In this document: in pieces, positions 1,019 to 13,871 of the stretch
Layout of the letters: each line of letters opens with the position of its first letter
Position numbering within the stretch: position 1 is the first letter of the stretch
Assembly (NCBI GenBank): GCA_903832735.1
Contig: CAILCO010000093.1
Location: 1 to 64,000, forward strand
Length of the DNA: 64,000 nucleotides
DNA from: an uncultured Sterolibacterium sp.
GTDB lineage: Bacteria; Pseudomonadota; Gammaproteobacteria; Burkholderiales; Rhodocyclaceae
Direction: 5' to 3'
Program-made: the position numbers and the translations under genes
Notes under the pieces: model-generated
Databases searched by the model: none
Seen by the model: only the letters and a program-made list of their open reading frames with translations
What the model was told of the DNA's origin: nothing

Positions 1019-3085
<2,067 letters not shown>

Positions 3086-3105
3086 TCAACGAGGCCGGCT
3101 TGCGG

Positions 3106-3738
3106 CTACCGGCGCCAGACGCTGGCCAACCAGGGCTGCTGCTCGCGAGGCAGGCCGGCCGGCCTGTAGTAATGCTCCAGTTCGGTAAAACCGGCGACGG
3201 CAAGATAGGCGCGCCAGGCGTCGAGATCGTAATAGGCACCATAGCGCTCGCCGCTGATGCTCTCGCTGTTGTCGCCGCGCGGATTGGAACTGAACAGCAC
3301 CCCGCCTGGCTTCAGCGCCGCATGCAATTGCCGCAGGATGCGCGGCAGTTCCTGGCGCGGCACATGAAACAGCGAAGCATTGGCGAACACCCCGTCGAAA
3401 TGCTCATCGGGCAGGTCGAGTTGAAGAAAGTCCTGCTGCCAGACCTCGCATCCGCTGTTGGCCCGCGCCATTTCGGCCAGGGCGGCAGCCCCTTCGAGGC
3501 CGACGGGATGATGACCTCGCTGCGCGAATGTCCGCAAGTCCCGACCAGGACCGCAGCCGAAATCGAGCAGGACAAACGGCGGCCGCGCCTGGATATGACG
3601 CAGCAGCGCGTCGATGTTCTGCTCGACATCGTGATGCCGGGTTCCCTCCCAGAAGGCCTCGGCCTGCCGCTGATAGTAGGCCAGCGTGCGCTGGGCAATC
3701 TGGCTCGGGGCGGTTCGATCAAGCGTCATGGCTGGCAT
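3106..3738 (-). CDS. Class I SAM-dependent methyltransferase
   Basis: A 210-residue soluble protein with a Rossmann methyltransferase core. Motif I is LLDFGCGPGRDL (about 57-68), the acidic residue after strand 2 is in VGLEG, and FDGVFANASLFHVP is motif IV. ALKPGGVLFSS precedes strand 5. The C-terminal LDAWRAYLAVAGF matches the usual end of Methyltransf_11/25-type enzymes. Substrate unknown. The ATG at 3738 is used; an in-frame ATG at 3729 is equally possible and neither has a clear ribosome-binding site. It is the first gene of the minus-strand group leading into fadH and faces away from aceA. Confidence 0.8.
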   Translation of the reverse strand: MPAMTLDRTAPSQIAQRTLAYYQRQAEAFWEGTRHHDVEQNIDALLRHIQARPPFVLLDFGCGPGRDLRTFAQRGHHPVGLEGAAALAEMARANSGCEVWQQDFLQLDLPDEHFDGVFANASLFHVPRQELPRILRQLHAALKPGGVLFSSNPRGDNSESISGERYGAYYDLDAWRAYLAVAGFTELEHYYRPAGLPREQQPWLASVWRR

Positions 3739-4171
3739 TTAACACCAATCACGCTCCTGGCGTAGCCAATTCGTCATCGCAATGCAACTTGAACTGGGAC
3801 AGCGAGGTTGCGCCGTATCGCAGAAATTTTCCGCATCGCAGCAACGGTTGGTTTCACGAGAGCAATATTGATTTCATATCATGAAATGTTAAATATAATA
3901 TGTTGTAATTAAAGATATAACAATATATCGATTTTCGCTCGCAACCGGATATTGCTTCGCACAATCAACTTTATACTTAAACCAACACGAACTCGACCAT
4001 CGGCAACCGCCTGGGTCGCGTCCGTAGGGGGCGGGTCCTACCCTTTCCGCCCTGTGGTTCGTCAGATCCGATCTCTGGCAGCCCCGTGGATGGACGTAGC
4101 CCTTCGTGCCCGCAAGGTGCGCAGGCTGCGCCGCAAAGACCAACATCCCACTTTGACCTAGAGGAATCAAT
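3739..4171. promoter_or_regulatory. Intergenic leader/promoter region of aceA
   Basis: This 433-bp gap has no convincing gene. It holds two near-identical 11-mers, CCGTATCGCAG (3813-3823) and CCGCATCGCAG (3831-3841), in direct orientation 18 bp apart. A dyad ATTTCA-TATCA-TGAAAT lies at 3871-3887, followed by a markedly AT-rich stretch to about 3960. The last 200 bp are G+C-rich and end in AGAGGAATC just before the aceA ATG. The layout suggests a regulated promoter with a long leader for isocitrate lyase, but no named regulator can be assigned. No perfect -35/-10 pair was identified. Confidence 0.4.
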
Positions 4172-5470
4172 ATGAACCGAGCAACTGAAGTCGCCAAGCT
4201 GAACAAGGATTGGGCCGAGAACCCGCGCTGGATGGGCATCAAGAGAGGCTATACGGCGGAGGAGGTAGTCCGCTTGCGCGGATCGGTCCAGATCGAGCAT
4301 ACCGTTGCCCGCCGTGGCGCCGAGAAAATGTGGAGCCTGCTTCACAGCGAGCCCTTCGTCGCCACCTTGGGCGCGCTGACCGGAAATCAGGCGATGCAGC
4401 AGGTAAAAGCAGGCCTCAAGGCGATTTACCTCTCCGGCTGGCAGGTGGCGGGAGACGCCAATCTCGCCGGTGAAATGTATCCCGACCAATCCCTTTACCC
4501 GGCCAACTCGGTGCCCTTGGTAGTCAAGCGAATCAACAACACTTTCGCCCGCGCCGACCAGATTCAATGGTCGGAAGGCAAGAACGACGTTGACTACTTC
4601 GCACCGATCATCGCCGACGCCGAAGCCGGATTCGGCGGCGTATTGAACGCCTTCGAGTTGATGAAATCGATGATCGAGGCCGGCGCCGCCGGCGTGCATT
4701 TCGAGGATCAACTCGCTTCGGTGAAAAAATGCGGCCACATGGGCGGCAAGGTCCTGGTGCCGACCCGCGAAGCCGTCGCCAAACTGGTTGCGGCACGCCT
4801 CGCCGCCGACGTCATGGGCGTACCGACGCTGGTCATTGCGCGCACCGATGCCGATGCGGCGGATCTCGTCACCTCCGACGTAGACGACATCGACAAGCCG
4901 TTTTGCACCGGCGAACGCACCGTCGAAGGCTTCTACCGGACCAGAGCTGGCCTGGAGCAGGCGGTTTCCCGGGGACTGGCCTATGCGCCCTTCGTCGATT
5001 TGTTGTGGTGCGAGACCGGGAAGCCCGACCTGACCTACGCGAAAGCATTTGCCGATGCCATCCATGCCAAGTTCCCCGGCAAGTTGCTGGCCTACAACTG
5101 TTCGCCCTCGTTCAACTGGAAGAAGAATCTCGACGACGCCACCATCGCGAGGTTCCAGTCGGAACTTGGCGCCATGGGCTACAAGTTCCAGTTCATCACC
5201 CTGGCTGGCTTCCACAGCCTCAACTACTCGATGTTCAACCTTGCCTACGGCTATGCGCGCAATCAGATGTCTGCGTTCGTGGAGCTACAGGAAGCGGAGT
5301 TCGACGCAGTCGACAAGGGCTTCACCGCGGTCAAGCATCAGCGCGAAGTCGGCACCGGCTACTTCGACGCCGTGACCCAGACCATTGAAGGCAGTCAGTC
5401 TTCGACCACGGCCCTCAAAGGCTCGACCGAAGATGAACAGTTCTTCGACAAGAAAGTCGCCAATGCCTGA
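4172..5470 (+). CDS. aceA: Isocitrate lyase
   Basis: A 432-residue cytosolic enzyme of the glyoxylate bypass that splits isocitrate into succinate and glyoxylate, allowing growth on acetate or fatty acids. The catalytic signature KKCGHMGG is at 185-192 with the nucleophilic Cys187. Other family blocks are [33 protein letters not shown]-type metal-site residues ([11 protein letters not shown]) and the C-terminal [10 protein letters not shown]. Length matches the E. coli enzyme (434 aa). The ATG follows AGAGG by about 8 nt. No malate synthase gene lies in the window. The nearby fadH fits a cell that oxidises fatty acids to acetyl-CoA. Confidence 0.97.
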
Positions 5471-5471
5471 G

Positions 5472-5528
5472 GTATTGGGCATGCATTTGACGCTGGCCCT
5501 GAGGAGCCAATACTGGACTCTGGGCCAG
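5472..5528 (+). promoter_or_regulatory. Interleaved inverted repeats between aceA and the next ORF
   Basis: GTATTGG (5472-5478) can pair with CCAATAC (5507-5513). CTGGCCC (5493-5499) can pair with GGGCCAG (5522-5528). The arms alternate as A1-B1-A2-B2, so the RNA could form either of two exclusive hairpins or an H-type pseudoknot. No U-run follows, so this is not a plain terminator. It may tune stability or read-through of the aceA mRNA; that is inference only. Confidence 0.35.
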
Positions 5529-5583
5529 CTGACGAGACTCGACAACCTGCGCACCGCGCTTATGATCACCAAGGAGTAATACC

Positions 5584-5805
5584 ATGACCATCACAACCTA
5601 CTACGCCGCTTGCATGCAAAGTCGCTCCAACGCCGAGGCCGCTTCCATCGTCCATCTCATCAACGATTTGACCGCCGCCACTGGCGACAACCGTTCATGG
5701 GATGCGATGCGGGCGCAAATCAATGCGCTGGCTGATTCGGACACCCAACATCGGCTTGGCATTGTCATCGAAGCCGAGGAATTCGAACACATGGCGGATG
5801 ACTGA
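5584..5805 (+). CDS. Small hypothetical protein downstream of aceA
   Basis: A 73-residue acidic, soluble protein of no family I recognise. It has no signal peptide, membrane segment or cysteine motif. The centre is helix-rich (ASIVHLINDLTAATGD) and the tail is strongly acidic (EAEEFEHMADD). Evidence that it is real: AAGGAG lies about 9 nt before the ATG, it is co-directional with aceA after 113 nt, and a strong intrinsic terminator follows 41 nt after its stop. It may be co-expressed with isocitrate lyase, but no function can be claimed. Confidence 0.6.
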   Translation: MTITTYYAACMQSRSNAEAASIVHLINDLTAATGDNRSWDAMRAQINALADSDTQHRLGIVIEAEEFEHMADD

Positions 5806-5832
5806 GCACCCCGCGCCGTCCACCCAAGATGC

Positions 5833-6792
5833 TCAGGGCGGACGGCGCGAATCCCCCGGCAGGCCGGGGGATTCGCTTTTGGCTAAATCGGCAGCACTTT
5901 GCATCCATTGATGAAAAACGGCCACTGCCGGATTGCCGGCACCACGCTGCGAGATGAGCAGGAAGTACGAACGCGGGTTTGAATAGCGCTGCGGCAGCGG
6001 GGTCACCAAGGCGCCACTGTCAAGCAGGTTTTCGACTAGGCCCCGCGTTGCCAAGGCGACTCCCTGCCCGTCCACGGCGGCACGGATGGCCGACTCGTAC
6101 TGGTTGAATTCGACCCTGCCGAGTGGACGCAAGTCGACCAGTCCCGCCGCTTCGAGCCAAACGGACCAACTCAGCCAAGGCAAATGCCGGGCCTCGTCCA
6201 CGTAGTCCAGCAACACATGGTGAGTAAGATCCTGCGGTTTCTTCAATGCGTGCACGGTCTTCAATAGGTTGGGGCTACAGACTGCTATCACGGCACCCCC
6301 CGCAATCTGCAATGCGCCAGCCGGCGCAGATCGATCAGGCAGATGTCGCACCGCGGCGTCGAACCTTCCCCGCTCCAGATCAACAATGCGAGTGTCGGCA
6401 GAAATGCGAATATCGACCCCGGGGTTCAAGCGACGAAACGCATTCAGTCGCGGAATCAGCCAGAACGAAGCGAACGCCGGCGTGCAGGTCAAGGTGACTA
6501 TCGGCTCGTCCCCGGCTCGCAAGTCCGCAAAAGCTTCACGCAGGGTCGCGAGGGAGGTTTCGGTCGCACGGAGCAAGCGTTCTCCGGCTTGAGTCAGCTT
6601 TAAGCTGCGCGTCTTACGCTCGAACAGGCTCAGGCCCATGGCCGATTCCAGGGTACCGATCTGCTTGCTCACGGCAGATTGCGTGACGAATAATCTTTCG
6701 GCGGCACGAGTAAACGACAACTCCCGGCCGGCAATTTCGAAAACACGTAGCGTATCGAGCGGCGGCAAATCCTGCCCAGAACCTTTTGTCAT
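5833..6792 (-). CDS. LysR-family transcriptional regulator (GcvA-like)
   Basis: A 319-residue LysR regulator. The N-terminal winged helix-turn-helix is at about 10-70, with the typical LRVFEIAGRELSFTRAAERL and TQSAVSKQIGTLE segments. The two-lobed effector-binding domain follows from about 95 to 300. The HTH wording is closest to the GcvA subgroup, which controls diverse operons, so the effector is unknown. It is divergent from the DUF2917/GFA genes, with a T-N11-A dyad in the 96-bp gap, so it probably controls them and itself. The last residues (SESPGLPGDS) are encoded by the arms of a terminator hairpin that serves the convergent small ORF. Confidence 0.9.
   Translation of the reverse strand: MTKGSGQDLPPLDTLRVFEIAGRELSFTRAAERLFVTQSAVSKQIGTLESAMGLSLFERKTRSLKLTQAGERLLRATETSLATLREAFADLRAGDEPIVTLTCTPAFASFWLIPRLNAFRRLNPGVDIRISADTRIVDLERGRFDAAVRHLPDRSAPAGALQIAGGAVIAVCSPNLLKTVHALKKPQDLTHHVLLDYVDEARHLPWLSWSVWLEAAGLVDLRPLGRVEFNQYESAIRAAVDGQGVALATRGLVENLLDSGALVTPLPQRYSNPRSYFLLISQRGAGNPAVAVFHQWMQSAADLAKSESPGLPGDSRRPP
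5847..5880 (+). terminator. Intrinsic terminator after aceA and small ORF
   Basis: A perfect 13-bp stem GCGAATCCCCCGG (5847-5859) / CCGGGGGATTCGC (5864-5876) with loop CAGG is followed directly by TTTT. It terminates plus-strand transcription. No T-run follows on the minus strand. It lies inside the 3' coding part of the convergent LysR gene. Confidence 0.85.
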
Positions 6793-6831
6793 TCCATTAC
6801 CTCATGCATAGCGTGAGAAATTTTCGTTGGA

Positions 6832-8507: not shown

Positions 8508-11500
8508 TCATACCCCACGCAGCACGCTGAACTCCCTGAACAACCGGGCTGGCAGCGGCGTCTCAAGCTTCCACACCAGGCTCATCGGTCTGTCGCCCTC
8601 AGCGGTTTCGAGCGTCACGCGGCCACATGCGCGGTACGCGTCGCCCTTGCGCGGGCGGACGAAGAGCTGAAACTGCCAGCCGTTGGCGGGGCTCTCCAGA
8701 TAGCGCCGCCCGCTGTTGGTGTCAGGTCCGGAACTGTTCTGTGTCTGCCAGTGGAAGCGCTCAGCGCTGATTGCGTAGTCGTGATAAGCAATTCGATCGT
8801 GATAGCCCTCGCTTTTGTCGAGCGTGACGAAGAGCAGCTCGGCCTTGCGGCTCGCCAGCGGCAACACGCCGGCTTGGAATGGCGCGCGATGCCTGGCCGT
8901 GAGCCAGCCCACCGCCGTGAGGACCTCGCGCGCGCCATATGCTGCGTGCAGGCAGAGAGGTGTGTCTTCGAGTCCGGGCACCGGCGCAAAGGGCAGGCTC
9001 GCGCGCACCTGGAGCACGCCGGACAACTCCGCGAGTTCTTCACGGATGAGTGGATGGCGTGCCAGGCGTTCGACAAACGCTGTGTGGCTTGCCGCCTGCG
9101 CATGCTGCCCATCAATTTGATAGGCCAGCATCTGCAAACCCAGTGCGACGCTGGCGTCAGGAGGTATGGCTTGGTCAACAGGCACGTCCAGCGCCATCAT
9201 CATGTCAAGCCGCTTCGGGTCGTCCACGTGCAGCAGATCAGCCATGCGGCGACTGAAGTACTCTTCCTCCGGACCGGCTTCTGAAACGATGAGTCCGGCA
9301 TCGCGCTTCAGCGCTGTCCATCCGCTGCGGCCATTGGCGCGGTACACATCCTCGAGTTCCAAAGCTTGCTCGTGCAGGAAATCTGCCAACCGCACCGAAG
9401 CCCGTCCGCGCAAAGCGGCATAGGTTTGCAGTTCCGTGCGAAGTCGGCGCCAGTTCTGCATCGTGAGCGCGCGCAAGCCCTGCAGCACCTGCTCGCGGGT
9501 CTGCCGCTGCAGGTGAATGTGGCAACCGGGAGGCAAGCTTCCGAAGCCGTTTTCGACACCGTCGCTCAGCTCGCGGCGCGACAGGCCTGTCAGACCAGAC
9601 AGCAATCGGTCGAAACGGAAATCAGCACGATGCTGGCCGACGAAGTCGAGCACGAGGCAGCTCTCCTTGCCTGGCGCCAAGCGCAGGCCACGCCCAATCT
9701 GCTGCTGAAAGAGCACCGGACTTTGGGTCGGTCGCAGCAGCAACAGCGTATCGACCATGGGCAAGTCGATGCCCTCGTTGTAAAGGTCGACAGTCACAAG
9801 CACGCACAGCTCACCGCTGAGCAACCGTTGCGGCGCACGGCGTCGCTCATCAGGCGCGGTCGTGCCCACCACGCAGGCCGCAGGCAGCCCGGCCCGATTC
9901 AACCAATCAGTCATGAACTTCGCATGCTCGACTGAAACACAGAACATCAGGGCGCGCGATCGTCTGGCATCCGCTGCCAGCCGGCGCCACTCGTTGACCA
10001 CCAGCCGCGCGCGCACGTCGTTGCCGGTGACCAGTTTGTCCACGGCTTCGCGCTCGCCCGGCCTGTCCCAAGGGACTTGCGAAAAGTCGGTCGCGTCATC
10101 ACAGGCGTAGTACTCGAAGGGCGCCAGCAGCCGCAGGTCGAGCGCGTGCCACAGGCGCAACTCGACGGCCGGACTGCCATCGGGTCGCGGGTCGAAGTAG
10201 TGGGCAATCGGCTGCCCGTCGCTGCGTTCCGGCGTCGCCGTCAGCCCCAGCAAGAGACGCGGGCGCACGGCGGTCACGAACGCGTCGAACCGATCTGCCG
10301 CGAGACGGTGACACTCGTCGACGACCACGGTATGCCAATGGTCAGCTCCCACGGTGGCGACCAGGTCGCGGCTGCTCACGCTGTCGATGGTGGCAAACAG
10401 GTGACCCCAGCGCTCGGGCTGGTGAGCGCCGGTCAGCAGGTCCCCGAACTCCGGGTCGCGTAGCACTTCGCGATAGGTGCGCAGTGCCTGACGCAGGATC
10501 TCTTCCCGGTGGGCCACGAACAGCAATCGCGGGCGTCCCCCTTCGCTCTGGCAAGTGTTCCGGTAGTCGAACGCTGCGACCACCGTCTTGCCTGTCCCCG
10601 TCGCAGCCACCACCAGGTTGCGGCATCGCCCGTGGGCGCGCTCCGCCGCCAACTGCTCCAGCATGTCCTGTTGATAGGTCTTGGGCTGCAGGTCGAAAAA
10701 GCTGATCGTCGCTGCCGGTGAACCATTTGGGCCAAAGGACTCACGCCCAAGGGCGGCCGCCAGCGCACTCCGGTGGTCGACGTTATCCGGATCGTAGCGC
10801 TGAAACTCGTTGTCCTCCCATAGCGTCTCGAAGTGCGCGATGGCGCGGGCGAACAGGGCCTCCTGTGCGCGCTGGGTCAGCTTGACCGTCCACTCCAATC
10901 CGCCGGTGAGTGCAGCACCTGACAGGTTGGCGCTGCCCACATACGCTGAACCAAAGCCTGTCTTACGGTGGAAGAGCCAGGCCTTCGCATGCAGGCGCGT
11001 GCGCCGGCCGTCGAGTGATACCCGTACCTCACAGCCAGGCAGGTGCGCCAATTCGTCGAGAGCCCGTGCTTCTGTGGCACCGGTGTAGGTGGTGGTGAGG
11101 ATGCGCAAGCGTGTCGTGCCTTGTGCTTGCGCCGACAGCGCGGTGATCTGCTGCAGTATGTCTTGAAGCTTGCGAACTCCGGACACCGTGATGAAGCTGA
11201 CCAGAATGTCGACCCGATCAGCGGAGGCAAGCTCGCGACGAATTTCCTGCAGCAGCGACGGCGATCCCTTGCCCGCAGTGAATAGCCAAGGCACTGCTAA
11301 CCCGACCTCAGGCGATACGGGGAACTGCCTGTCGCGCTGAATGGCCTTCAATAGCCGCAATGGCGGTGCGACCAAGTCGATAACGTCCGCGGAACTGCCT
11401 TCACCAGCATCGACAACAAGCCGTTGGCGAAGCGCCACCAGCAGCGCATTGACGAGCTCAAGCTGACGCCGCGACTTGTCGGCGTCATCTCCGGACATGT

Positions 11501-11654
11501 CGTCCAGGACAGCGACCAATTGGCGCGTGATCGCGTCGGCCAAGAACTCGGATGCCCCCTCCTTGAGCGCATGGACGTCAGCTCGGCTCAACTCGAGACG
11601 TGATGCCAGTCCCTCTGTGAGCAGCAGGTCGTAGAGACCATCGGGCAACGCCAT
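8508..11654 (-). CDS. PLD nuclease-DEAD helicase-DUF3427 fusion (restriction-like)
   Basis: A 1048-residue protein with three parts. The N-terminal PLD-type nuclease domain (about 100-290) has a single HxK...N motif: His222 and Lys224 in LHAKAWLF, and Asn243 in GSANLSG. The superfamily 2 helicase (about 320-690) has Walker A ATGTGKT (Lys356), DECH box 446-449, motif III GLTATPERSD and a Qx2GRGLR motif VI. The C-terminal DUF3427 region is about 700-1048. One HKD per chain implies a dimeric nuclease. Such proteins are widely found among restriction-like anti-phage genes. The ATG at 11654 has GGGGGA upstream and begins 14 nt after the mrr stop; a longer start at 11696 would overlap mrr. Confidence 0.88.
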   Translation of the reverse strand: MALPDGLYDLLLTEGLASRLELSRADVHALKEGASEFLADAITRQLVAVLDDMSGDDADKSRRQLELVNALLVALRQRLVVDAGEGSSADVIDLVAPPLRLLKAIQRDRQFPVSPEVGLAVPWLFTAGKGSPSLLQEIRRELASADRVDILVSFITVSGVRKLQDILQQITALSAQAQGTTRLRILTTTYTGATEARALDELAHLPGCEVRVSLDGRRTRLHAKAWLFHRKTGFGSAYVGSANLSGAALTGGLEWTVKLTQRAQEALFARAIAHFETLWEDNEFQRYDPDNVDHRSALAAALGRESFGPNGSPAATISFFDLQPKTYQQDMLEQLAAERAHGRCRNLVVAATGTGKTVVAAFDYRNTCQSEGGRPRLLFVAHREEILRQALRTYREVLRDPEFGDLLTGAHQPERWGHLFATIDSVSSRDLVATVGADHWHTVVVDECHRLAADRFDAFVTAVRPRLLLGLTATPERSDGQPIAHYFDPRPDGSPAVELRLWHALDLRLLAPFEYYACDDATDFSQVPWDRPGEREAVDKLVTGNDVRARLVVNEWRRLAADARRSRALMFCVSVEHAKFMTDWLNRAGLPAACVVGTTAPDERRRAPQRLLSGELCVLVTVDLYNEGIDLPMVDTLLLLRPTQSPVLFQQQIGRGLRLAPGKESCLVLDFVGQHRADFRFDRLLSGLTGLSRRELSDGVENGFGSLPPGCHIHLQRQTREQVLQGLRALTMQNWRRLRTELQTYAALRGRASVRLADFLHEQALELEDVYRANGRSGWTALKRDAGLIVSEAGPEEEYFSRRMADLLHVDDPKRLDMMMALDVPVDQAIPPDASVALGLQMLAYQIDGQHAQAASHTAFVERLARHPLIREELAELSGVLQVRASLPFAPVPGLEDTPLCLHAAYGAREVLTAVGWLTARHRAPFQAGVLPLASRKAELLFVTLDKSEGYHDRIAYHDYAISAERFHWQTQNSSGPDTNSGRRYLESPANGWQFQLFVRPRKGDAYRACGRVTLETAEGDRPMSLVWKLETPLPARLFREFSVLRGV

Positions 11655-11668
11655 CGCAGTCCCCCGGG

Positions 11669-12541
11669 TCAGCCGATTTGCCGGGTGCCGCGGCACGCCG
11701 GATATTCACTGCAGCCCCAGAACTCGCTGCCTGCGTTGGCGCCGCGTTTGGCGGTGCGTTTGACCATGCTCTTTGAACAGACGGGACATGTGGGTGCCGG
11801 CACGGCGTCCACTGGCGTTGCAGTTTCGGCAGGGCTTGTAGTCTCCGGTCGTGCAGGCGCACTGACCTTCGATGATTGGACTTGGCGAATCAACCCGTAA
11901 AGCTTCGGCCCATCGATGAGCATGACATTGCGGCCGTTCGCAAAGCCGGCGGCGTCTTCGGTGAAACGGCCAGAGGTCACCACGAACCCGCCAGCAGCAC
12001 CCTTGGCGGCCATCACGCCATAGAGTTCACGAACGACATCCACGCCCACCTTGAACGCTTTCCACTGCTTGCACTGGACAAGGAACTTCTCGCTGCCTTT
12101 GCTAAGGATCAGGTCGATGCCGCCATCGGCGCCATGACCACCGGTCTCGGTCACGGCGTAGCCCTGCAACCGAAAGGCCTCACCGACCAGCAATTCGAAC
12201 TCCTGCCAGCTCATGCCATCGAGCGCATCGGCAGCCTTGCTTTGAGAAACATCCGCCACCAACATCTGCCGCTGGCGCCGCTGCCAAGCTGACATGCCCG
12301 CGCCCGCGAGGCAAATCAACGGAAGGAGGTACTGCCCAAAGCTGGCCAGCGTCTTCCACAGCGTCTGCGTTACCATCGCACCGACCTGACCTGGCTGAAT
12401 GGCAGTTGCGACCTGCTGCGAGGCTACGCGATGCAGAACCACATAGAGCACAAGCGCAAGCGCCACGCCGGCCCACCAAGGCAGCATGGCCACCAAGTCC
12501 ATCAAGTCTTCGGCGGCGCTGGTTTTCTTTCTGCGGGCCAT
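11669..12541 (-). CDS. Membrane-anchored Mrr-type restriction endonuclease with zinc ribbon
   Basis: A 290-residue protein. Two hydrophobic segments (about 19-36 and 66-84) precede an Mrr_cat PD-(D/E)xK nuclease domain (about 108-220) with GADGGIDL (Asp143) and QCKQWK (Gln156, Lys158) as the catalytic pattern. After a Pro/Thr/Ala-rich linker a topoisomerase-type C4 zinc ribbon ends the protein (C252, C255, C277, C283). Mrr nucleases cut modified or foreign DNA; membrane anchoring would place cleavage at the site of DNA entry, which is inference. It sits 14 nt upstream of the PLD-helicase gene, so the two are almost certainly co-translated and may act together. Confidence 0.88.
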   Translation of the reverse strand: MARRKKTSAAEDLMDLVAMLPWWAGVALALVLYVVLHRVASQQVATAIQPGQVGAMVTQTLWKTLASFGQYLLPLICLAGAGMSAWQRRQRQMLVADVSQSKAADALDGMSWQEFELLVGEAFRLQGYAVTETGGHGADGGIDLILSKGSEKFLVQCKQWKAFKVGVDVVRELYGVMAAKGAAGGFVVTSGRFTEDAAGFANGRNVMLIDGPKLYGLIRQVQSSKVSAPARPETTSPAETATPVDAVPAPTCPVCSKSMVKRTAKRGANAGSEFWGCSEYPACRGTRQIG

Positions 12542-12756: not shown

Positions 12757-13185
12757 TTATTCCTTCTCGGCCATGGCTTCTTGCACCTGCGCCAGAAGGA
12801 CGTCAGTCGACGCGACCAGGTTGCCCAGCAACTCTTCGTCGACGTCCATGTAGCCTTCGTACTCCGCCAGATTTCGGCGTTCATGGCACAGTGCGAACAG
12901 GCGAACCTGTAGCTTGCTCACATCGAGGGTATGCAGCAGGCACTGAAACACCAAGTAGCGCTTATCCGAGCGATAACCCTGCAGGCGCAACGCCGTCAGC
13001 GCCAGAGCATGGGCGGCGTTATAAGCCAGATCGAAGCGGCTGGCGAAAGACAGCGTCGGGTTGCGGGCATCCTTCAAACGGTCAATCGCGGAGCGCTTCA
13101 AGCCTTCGCACTCCTTGCGCTCCGGCGGCTCCGCCTTGAGGCCGCCGCTGCGCACCAGATTCTCCAGATTGTCCTTACTGCTCAT
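12757..13185 (-). CDS. HEPN-domain protein, putative toxin of MNT-HEPN pair
   Basis: A 142-residue all-alpha protein. FDLAYNAAHALALTALRLQGYR is the typical first long helix of HEPN proteins, and RLFALCH (R95-x5-H101) fits the R-x(4-6)-H RNase motif, followed by RRNLAEYEGY. It starts 11 nt before the end of the nucleotidyltransferase gene. In characterised MNT-HEPN pairs the HEPN protein is an RNase toxin and the nucleotidyltransferase neutralises it by AMPylating a tyrosine near that motif; Tyr109 or Tyr112 would be the candidates here. A 215-bp gap with no supported gene separates it from mrr. Confidence 0.75.
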   Translation of the reverse strand: MSSKDNLENLVRSGGLKAEPPERKECEGLKRSAIDRLKDARNPTLSFASRFDLAYNAAHALALTALRLQGYRSDKRYLVFQCLLHTLDVSKLQVRLFALCHERRNLAEYEGYMDVDEELLGNLVASTDVLLAQVQEAMAEKE

Positions 13186-13777
13186 TCGCTGGCTCCTCCG
13201 GTTGGCTGCCGATCAGGTTGATCTTGTCTTGCTCGATCACCCGCACGACAAAGCTGTTGCCGGCAGCGATCCTGCCCCGCCAGTCGGCTGGAGTATAGAT
13301 CGTCGGGTTGATGCTGCGGCCCAGGCGCTCTTCCACAGGCAATAAGCGCTCAATCACGTCGCTATAGTTGAGGTCCTCGCCGATCAACATCAAGTCGATA
13401 TCGCTGCCGGCATGATCGGTACCCTTGGCGATGGAGCCGTAGACAAAAGCCCACACCAACTGATCAGCCAAGGGTGCGAGGGCGGCCCGCAACTGCTCGC
13501 CGATGCCGAAAGTCTTGCGCACGATGCCCAGCAGCTCGGAGTAAATCGGGCAATCCGGGTTGGCTTGATAGTGGGTCTGGTTACCCTGTCGACTCATGAT
13601 CAGCACGCCGGATTTCTGCAGTCGGTCCAGTTCGCGCATCAGGCTGCCCTTGCCGACCTGTGCCCAGCGGGCAATCTCGTTGGCGTAAAAGGTCCGATCC
13701 GGCTTGCCATACAACAGACCCAGCACCTTCTGCTGGGTCGCAGTGAACAGCGCATCGCTGAGCGGCAGGGTCTGCAT
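13175..13777 (-). CDS. wHTH-nucleotidyltransferase (MNT) antitoxin and likely autorepressor
   Basis: A 200-residue two-domain protein. The N-terminal winged helix (about 10-75; FYANEIARWAQVGKGSLMRELDRL) is followed by a minimal nucleotidyltransferase domain with GSIAKG (Ser115) and the D-x-D pair Asp126/Asp128 in GSDIDLMLIG. It is the antitoxin of the HEPN protein, with an added DNA-binding domain. The ATG at 13777 is preferred: the longer frame to 13834 would translate the 42-bp palindrome just upstream, which is better explained as its operator. It is the first gene of the island's series. Confidence 0.82.
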   Translation of the reverse strand: MQTLPLSDALFTATQQKVLGLLYGKPDRTFYANEIARWAQVGKGSLMRELDRLQKSGVLIMSRQGNQTHYQANPDCPIYSELLGIVRKTFGIGEQLRAALAPLADQLVWAFVYGSIAKGTDHAGSDIDLMLIGEDLNYSDVIERLLPVEERLGRSINPTIYTPADWRGRIAAGNSFVVRVIEQDKINLIGSQPEEPANEQ

Positions 13778-13788
13778 GTGGGTCTCAG

Positions 13789-13830
13789 TAAGTCCCAAAA
13801 AGGGAATGATAGGTCCCTTTTTGGGACTTA
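13789..13830. promoter_or_regulatory. Nested palindromic operator upstream of MNT-HEPN
   Basis: TAAGTCCCAAAAAGGGA (13789-13805) and its exact reverse complement (13814-13830) are separated by 8 bp. Each 17-bp arm also contains a smaller dyad TCCC-N5-GGGA, giving two operator half-units inside one palindrome. It ends 12 bp before the start codon of the wHTH-containing antitoxin, so autoregulation is the simplest reading. Confidence 0.75.
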
Positions 13831-13871
13831 TCAAGTGATCTGTCCATCACAGTGAGAGGTCAAGATCCCGG

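Follow-up and report, generated by a model that had tools for sequence, protein, structure and literature searches.

The locus at positions 8,508 to 12,541 of the window, by which we mean the whole analysed stretch of 64,000 nucleotides (nt) from contig CAILCO010000093.1 of an uncultured Sterolibacterium sp., raises the question whether two adjacent genes constitute one restriction machine or two separable defences. One gene encodes a membrane-anchored nuclease of the Mrr type and the other a helicase protein with a phospholipase D (PLD) nuclease domain and a C-terminal DUF3427 domain (Table 1). The first-pass annotation, made from the letters alone, took them for a two-gene restriction system without a methyltransferase, located at the membrane, that matched no named system. 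The analysis presented here points to a SauUSI-family Type IV enzyme whose companion, a membrane nuclease, is probably co-transcribed with it but separable, rather than to an obligate new two-gene system. According to this reading, to which a probability of about two in three is given, a SauUSI-family enzyme and an independent inner-membrane nuclease are co-expressed in one clade and each normally works alone.

Both open reading frames (ORFs) are present and co-directional on the minus strand, with the Mrr gene first and 14 nt between the genes, as had been annotated. The helicase gene starts at the ATG at 11654, preceded by a ribosome-binding-like GGGGGA stretch; the mechanically called ORF begins upstream, at a GTG at 11696 within the Mrr gene. 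The helicase protein was matched by the Pfam models ResIII (E-value 8.6e-30), Helicase_C (4.1e-13), PLDc_2 (4.5e-7) and DUF3427 (1.3e-18), and the Mrr protein by Mrr_cat (3.9e-33) and Zn_ribbon_Top1 (4.5e-9). All these matches lie above the Pfam cut-offs and bear out the annotated helicase with an HKD nuclease and the PD-(D/E)xK nuclease with a zinc ribbon; the catalytic residues that had been singled out (H222, Walker K356, D143 and K158) were all found at the positions given.

The claim that no named system matches did not hold for the helicase half. The PADLOC model mREase_IV spans residues 113-1039 of the protein (E 6.7e-202), and the best phmmer match in the PDB was SauUSI (7clg, E 2.8e-70), with RadD far behind (4.8e-28). 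In the alignment to SauUSI, H222 and K224 stand opposite H119 and K121, GSANLS opposite GSSNLT, and the helicase motifs are aligned too, TGTGKT and DECH being present in the window protein; H222, K224 and N243 are invariant in 24 of 24 helicase rows. The published excerpts on SauUSI describe a dimeric four-domain enzyme with a target recognition domain of SRA fold (PMC7913695), whose C-terminus corresponds to Pfam DUF3427 and which acts as a single polypeptide with no partner required (PMC3874153). The window protein resembles it in the order of PLD nuclease, superfamily 2 (SF2) ATPase and C-terminal SRA/DUF3427 domain, in the retained HxK, Asn, helicase motifs and pocket Asp and Trp, and in the absence of a methyltransferase gene from the pair. 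It differs in about 95 additional residues ahead of the PLD domain (query residue 124 opposite SauUSI residue 31), in the loss of the Glu of the H(X)K(X)4E motif and in the second nuclease gene lying directly upstream in its clade. In CglI and NgoAVII a PLD nuclease also works with an SF2 ATPase, but, as far as the excerpted source goes, on separate subunits, the nuclease subunit bearing a B3 recognition domain (PMC7913695), whereas here the two are fused together with an SRA domain. On the evidence of alignments and models the helicase gene is thus classed as encoding a SauUSI-family Type IV enzyme. The annotated restriction without a methyltransferase fits this assignment, because such an enzyme needs none according to the same excerpts (PMC7913695, PMC3874153).

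The target recognition domain was modelled with AlphaFold2 (AF2) from 17 sequences (residues 870–1048; predicted local distance difference test, pLDDT, 82.5). Foldseek placed SauUSI 7clg first (5.6e-5), followed by AspBHI, AbaSI and the SRA domain of SUVH5, and VIA-align gave Z 14.4 against residues 803–953 of 7clg (131 residues, 2.5 Å) and Z 10.0 against the SUVH5 SRA domain. The base pocket of SauUSI includes Asp858 and Trp868 in the excerpted description (PMC7913695); D959 and W969 stand opposite them and are kept in 20 of the 20 non-gap rows of 24, in a mapping that combines a weak sequence segment (independent E-value 0.58) with the structural match. Phe841 and Ile842 of SauUSI stand opposite F942 and V943. 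By homology to SauUSI, recognition of modified cytosine by the helicase protein is predicted. It could instead sense a target other than 5-methylcytosine (5mC) or 5-hydroxymethylcytosine, for example a hypermodified phage base or a phosphorothioate context, with the same mechanics. SRA folds serve other modifications too (Z 8.2–8.8 against ScoMcrA, AbaSI and PvuRts1I), Tyr831 and Met829 of SauUSI are not placeable in the alignment, and the host methyltransferase homologues discussed below point the same way; since SauUSI is nevertheless the nearest structure and its 5mC-pocket Asp and Trp have conserved counterparts here, such a target is considered unlikely, though worth keeping in view.

The Mrr protein shares with E. 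coli Mrr the Mrr_cat domain with the D and QxK active site, but it gave no match to the Mrr_N winged-helix domain in Pfam at E 0.1, and has instead a membrane hairpin ahead of the catalytic domain and a topoisomerase-type zinc ribbon behind it. D143 is conserved in 96 of 96 aligned proteins, K158 in 95 of 96 and the four zinc-ribbon cysteines (C252, C255, C277 and C283) in 93–95 of 96. Of the two annotated membrane helices the first is clear (hydropathy 2.12) and the second weaker in this protein (1.46), although across the family its median is 1.73 and it reaches at least 1.2 in 95 of 96 proteins. The AF2 model (pLDDT 88.9) comprises an N-terminal helical hairpin, the nuclease domain, a flexible linker and the zinc ribbon, and its best Foldseek matches were MspJI and AspBHI, both modification-dependent enzymes. 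Lysines and arginines number 4 in the N-terminus, 2 in the loop and 4 in the segment past helix 2 which, read by the positive-inside rule, suggests that both ends of the protein are cytosolic. Resemblance to ZorD of the Zorya system is limited to the nuclease domain (3.6e-11), no search for ZorA or ZorB having been made.

Whether the two genes belong together was assessed from both sides. The Mrr loci are the best 80 of 100 relatives that came out of a pattern-based genome-collection scan biased to close relatives; pairing counts rest on tblastn and neighbour inspection, and the labels of single-linkage ORF clusters were used for no count. An intact helicase gene follows the Mrr gene in 8 of these 80 loci (L037, L038, L039, L041, L042, L044, L056 and L059; L044 is counted although its contig ends inside the helicase gene) and a helicase remnant follows it in L040, which gives 9 of 80 with the remnant. 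Seven of the intact pairs have a gap of 14 nt and L038 has one of 18 nt, and all their helicases are at least 82% identical to that of the window. The remaining 71 loci have no same-strand helicase of this kind (L089 and L090 offer less than 1 kb of downstream sequence), and tblastn found no helicase in the flanks, of at most 1.5 kb on either side of the Mrr gene, that are available for the same-family loci L005–L033. Since the helicase gene is rare, being present (E ≤ 1e-100) in 11 of 399 genomes of the order, 8 of 369 of the class and 15 of 399 from a further family (8-15 per 369-399 genomes), and in 8 of 74 genomes of one family, its occurrence after Mrr in 8 of 80 loci exceeds chance.

From the helicase side, genomes were drawn without regard to Mrr. 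They comprised 37 different ones besides the host, of which 35 could be judged. Two were set aside: L180, where the contig stops within the helicase gene, and L170, where the upstream flank is limited to 145 nt. An adjacent Mrr gene was found in 1 of the 35, namely L169, which is the same as L056 in both identities. It was absent from the other 34 at tblastn limits of 1e-3 to 1e-4, which a very divergent Mrr could escape; the upstream flank counted from the first aligned residue is short in L116 (507 bases), L165 (1037) and L168 (319). In L170 no Mrr gene ends within the 145 upstream nt in any of the three frames checked. The adjacency is therefore real but clade-limited. A search for conserved neighbours had been proposed in the first-pass annotation, and it upheld adjacency, in eight other loci, but confined it to one clade. 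The idea of a two-gene system acting at the membrane fared worse: genes of an obligate pair should be kept together across genomes, and here they are together in 9 of 80 Mrr loci and 1 of 35 helicase genomes, the SauUSI prototype itself being one polypeptide.

The history of the pairing was followed in trees. The second helicase tree has 38 rows, with 16 loci added and with L165, L167, L168 and L169 (L056 identities), L178 (internal stop) and L181 and L184 (gene in two frames) left out; the earlier tree of 22 rows, from which 19 duplicate or partial rows had been removed, agrees with it. Nine paired helicases, that of the window included, fall within one supported clade of 12 rows (99/95), which also holds L144 and L145, 81–82% identical and without Mrr, and L170, the unjudged sister of the window helicase. 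In the large Mrr tree (14 duplicate or truncated rows left out) ten paired rows, the remnant included, form a 17-row group with seven single genes (support 85, not starred), and the Mrr protein of the window is nearest by identity to single genes (74%). A strict clade of the paired Mrr rows was rejected by the approximately unbiased (AU) test (p 4.3e-5); with L047 added, in a grouping defined after inspection of the tree, it was not (p 0.089). L047, from Hydrogenophaga, has the Mrr gene without a helicase beside the same tRNA-Pro gene next to which the pair lies in L037, L042 and L059. In both trees unpaired genes branch from among the paired ones; a pairing that arose once, with either gene lost later, fits this pattern best, repeated pairing being less likely.

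These results bear on the view that the two proteins are an obligate machine at the inner membrane, in which the helicase feeds DNA to two nucleases. The eight intact pairs at 14–18 nt, the supported helicase clade, the single origin with loss in L047 that the AU test leaves standing, the occurrence of the pair in different surroundings, including the tRNA-Pro site and sites flanked by HNH genes, and the distant SauUSI-like gene that lies head-to-head with Mrr in the Roseateles locus L058 (33–41% identical over two stretches, and counted among the 71) all speak for it. L144 and L145 inside the clade without Mrr, the lack of an Mrr end in the available flank of L170, L047 with its lone Mrr at the same tRNA-Pro site, the 34 judgeable helicase genomes without an adjacent Mrr and the self-sufficiency of SauUSI in the excerpted report (PMC3874153) make an obligate machine unlikely. 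At the other extreme, the genes could be chance neighbours, unrelated defence genes that happen to share an island without any functional link. The stretch is variable, with an edge just past rng, and also carries an MNT-HEPN pair, the same type of Mrr gene adjoins many different defence genes, and each gene is often found without the other; a co-directional gap of 14–18 nt kept at eight loci, across several genera and surroundings, exceeds what island packing gives, however, and chance is held to be improbable.

The preferred reading, a SauUSI-family enzyme with an independent membrane nuclease, has its own difficulties, and the following points weigh against it. Residue 229, at the place of the Glu in SauUSI's H(X)K(X)4E, is H in 9, Q in 11, G in 3 and K in 1 of 24 rows; this departure is subfamily-wide and is not taken as defining, the protein being classed by its fold, domain order and other residues. 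The host genome has two C5-methyltransferase homologues (PF00145; L160 and L161, on contigs C49 and C52 of G000), the second only 207 aa long and near a contig end, so 5mC may occur in the host's own DNA. These homologues constrain a simple dependence on 5mC: the target must differ from, avoid or be shielded at self sites. Finally, the 14-18 nt spacing, the shared history of the eight intact pairs and the head-to-head gene in L058 argue for a functional link that two independent layers leave unexplained. It can even be imagined that in the Hydrogenophaga-Rubrivivax-window clade the membrane Mrr was recruited as a dedicated partner of the SauUSI-like enzyme, docking modification-dependent shredding at the inner membrane, a proposal regarded as quite doubtful. 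If it were true, marked phage or conjugative DNA would be caught on entry by a membrane-coupled Type IV restriction system.

Returning to separable enzymes, the most likely course of events is as follows. The C-terminal SRA-fold domain of the helicase protein would flip a modified cytosine out of incoming DNA, which would turn on the SF2 motor and start translocation, and a dimer of PLD nuclease domains would cut or shred the DNA; translocation and shredding are inferred by homology to SauUSI. As a second layer, the inner-membrane Mrr nuclease would likely act at the membrane on DNA that is entering or has been fragmented, and its zinc ribbon may hold single-stranded or damaged DNA.

Each half of the locus is of an already known kind and usually occurs without the other, and it is the clade-specific companion that is distinctive. 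No description of this helicase–Mrr pair was found in the PMC open literature, most subscription papers lying outside that search, and no dedicated study of the membrane-anchored Mrr/zinc-ribbon nuclease was found. The results add to the SauUSI family betaproteobacterial members whose subfamily is extended at the N-terminus, tie their DUF3427 to the SRA fold and draw attention to a widespread membrane nuclease whose gene neighbours defence genes of many kinds. A functional pairing would be a case of Type IV restriction placed at the membrane, and Hydrogenophaga, in which the same tRNA-Pro site carries Mrr either with the helicase or alone, makes the question testable.

Table 1. Coordinates of the two genes, their domains and the tRNA-Pro site (window positions unless a locus is named)
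Feature	Position	Strand	Basis
SauUSI-like PLD–helicase–DUF3427 restriction enzyme, 1048 aa	8508..11654	(-)	Pfam, PADLOC, phmmer
PLD (HKD) nuclease domain, residues 144–279; H222, K224, N243	10818..11225	(-)	Pfam PLDc_2, alignment
SF2 helicase-like ATPase, residues 322–659; Walker A K356, DECH 446–449	9678..10691	(-)	Pfam, alignment
DUF3427 / SRA-fold putative modified-base recognition domain, residues 896–1042; D959, W969	8529..8969	(-)	Pfam, AF2, fold searches
Membrane-anchored Mrr_cat nuclease with C4 zinc ribbon, 290 aa	11669..12541	(-)	Pfam, alignment, AF2 model
Membrane helix 1, residues 17–37	12431..12493	(-)	hydropathy 2.12 over 19 residues; AF2 helix 22–40
Probable membrane helix 2, about residues 66–88	12278..12346	(-)	hydropathy 1.46; AF2 helix 53–100
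Mrr PD-(D/E)xK catalytic domain, residues 107–217; D143, Q156-x-K158	11891..12223	(-)	Pfam, alignment
C4 zinc ribbon (Zn_ribbon_Top1), residues 251–289; C252, C255, C277, C283	11675..11791	(-)	Pfam, alignment
tRNA-Pro site	L037 12338–12414, L042 12339–12415, L047 6622–6698, L059 6424–6500

The Hydrogenophaga tRNA-Pro site has shared neighbour genes (a MerR regulator in L037) and recurs for the pair or for Mrr alone. HNH endonuclease genes are convergent with the pair in L056 (12039–13013) and L039 (4600–5637), and a Type IV model additionally covers part of the L056 protein (1.1e-9). A shared promoter upstream of Mrr was considered and rejected, the 250 nt upstream being alike, by eye, only among most Hydrogenophaga loci and partly in L056. 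In L058, positions 2998–6816 hold a 1272-aa ORF that is apparently a fusion of an N-terminal S-adenosylmethionine methyltransferase domain to PLD–helicase–DUF3427 (PADLOC mREase_IV 6.4e-115). A helicase remnant in L112, suggested by the single-linkage clusters, was dropped, tblastn being negative and the 210-aa gene starting, by eye, like a methyltransferase; the spurious link probably ran through the L058 fusion.

The Mrr protein was matched at E 0.001 in 137 of 297 genomes of the family, many of these matches covering the nuclease or ribbon part alone. Among plasmids, 176 records matched it, all below 60% identity and 13 covering at least 80% of the protein, and 18 records matched the helicase, again all below 60%; one phage record of 4.7 kb, MT838922, carries a relative of the Mrr protein at 39%. 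The host genome contains a broken second Mrr copy (L134, G000 contig C156, 5493–6002; 510 bp, 91% identity over the 5' part, in-frame TGA). Downstream neighbours of single Mrr genes were assigned by Pfam in ten chosen loci, two of which gave no hit. Genes for HsdM, another DNA methylase, SIR2, OLD, AbiEi, RhuM, a second Mrr_cat protein, MNT-HEPN and a radical-SAM protein lie on the same strand at most 150 nt further on, and this variety marks the Mrr gene as promiscuous. In L077 (8958–10562) and L085 the membrane Mrr gene is followed, 30 nt on, by a gene whose 535-aa product has an Mrr_cat domain at its C-terminus (Pfam, run for L077), a possible further nuclease pair.

Directly upstream of the Mrr gene in the window lie, on the same strand, a HEPN gene (13185–12757) and an MNT gene (whole stretch 12757–13834), which are matched by the PADLOC candidate PDC-M05 (2.2e-88 and 1.4e-65). 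A role of MNT-HEPN as a component of the pair was rejected, because no MNT or HEPN match was found by tblastn (above 45 bits) in L037–L042, L044, L056 or L059, some of which have short flanks; PDC-M05 is thus an upstream neighbour, not a pair member. In four further genomes of the genus, one of them without an rng match, the similarity to the window was followed; in the other three it stops at 13852, 13864 and 13947, just beyond the rng gene, past which the sequences differ (one of the contigs continues for 212 bases only), and this marks the start of a variable stretch. In G001 (L010) and in G255 (L013)/L086 the MNT-HEPN genes directly follow Mrr. Mrr and MNT occur within 6 kb of each other in at least 4 of 297 family genomes, the listed places having been compared by eye, and MNT in 82 of 297. 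An inverted repeat with 17-nt arms (13789–13830), which none of 500 shuffles reached, lies directly upstream of the MNT ATG at 13777. L150 has a nearly letter-identical arm of 18 nt, and L086 one of 10 nt with changed letters; L071 and L081 have a similar CCC..GGG pattern by eye, with no exact arm of 8 found. The repeat looks as if it were an operator co-diverging with the helix-turn-helix domain of the MNT protein.

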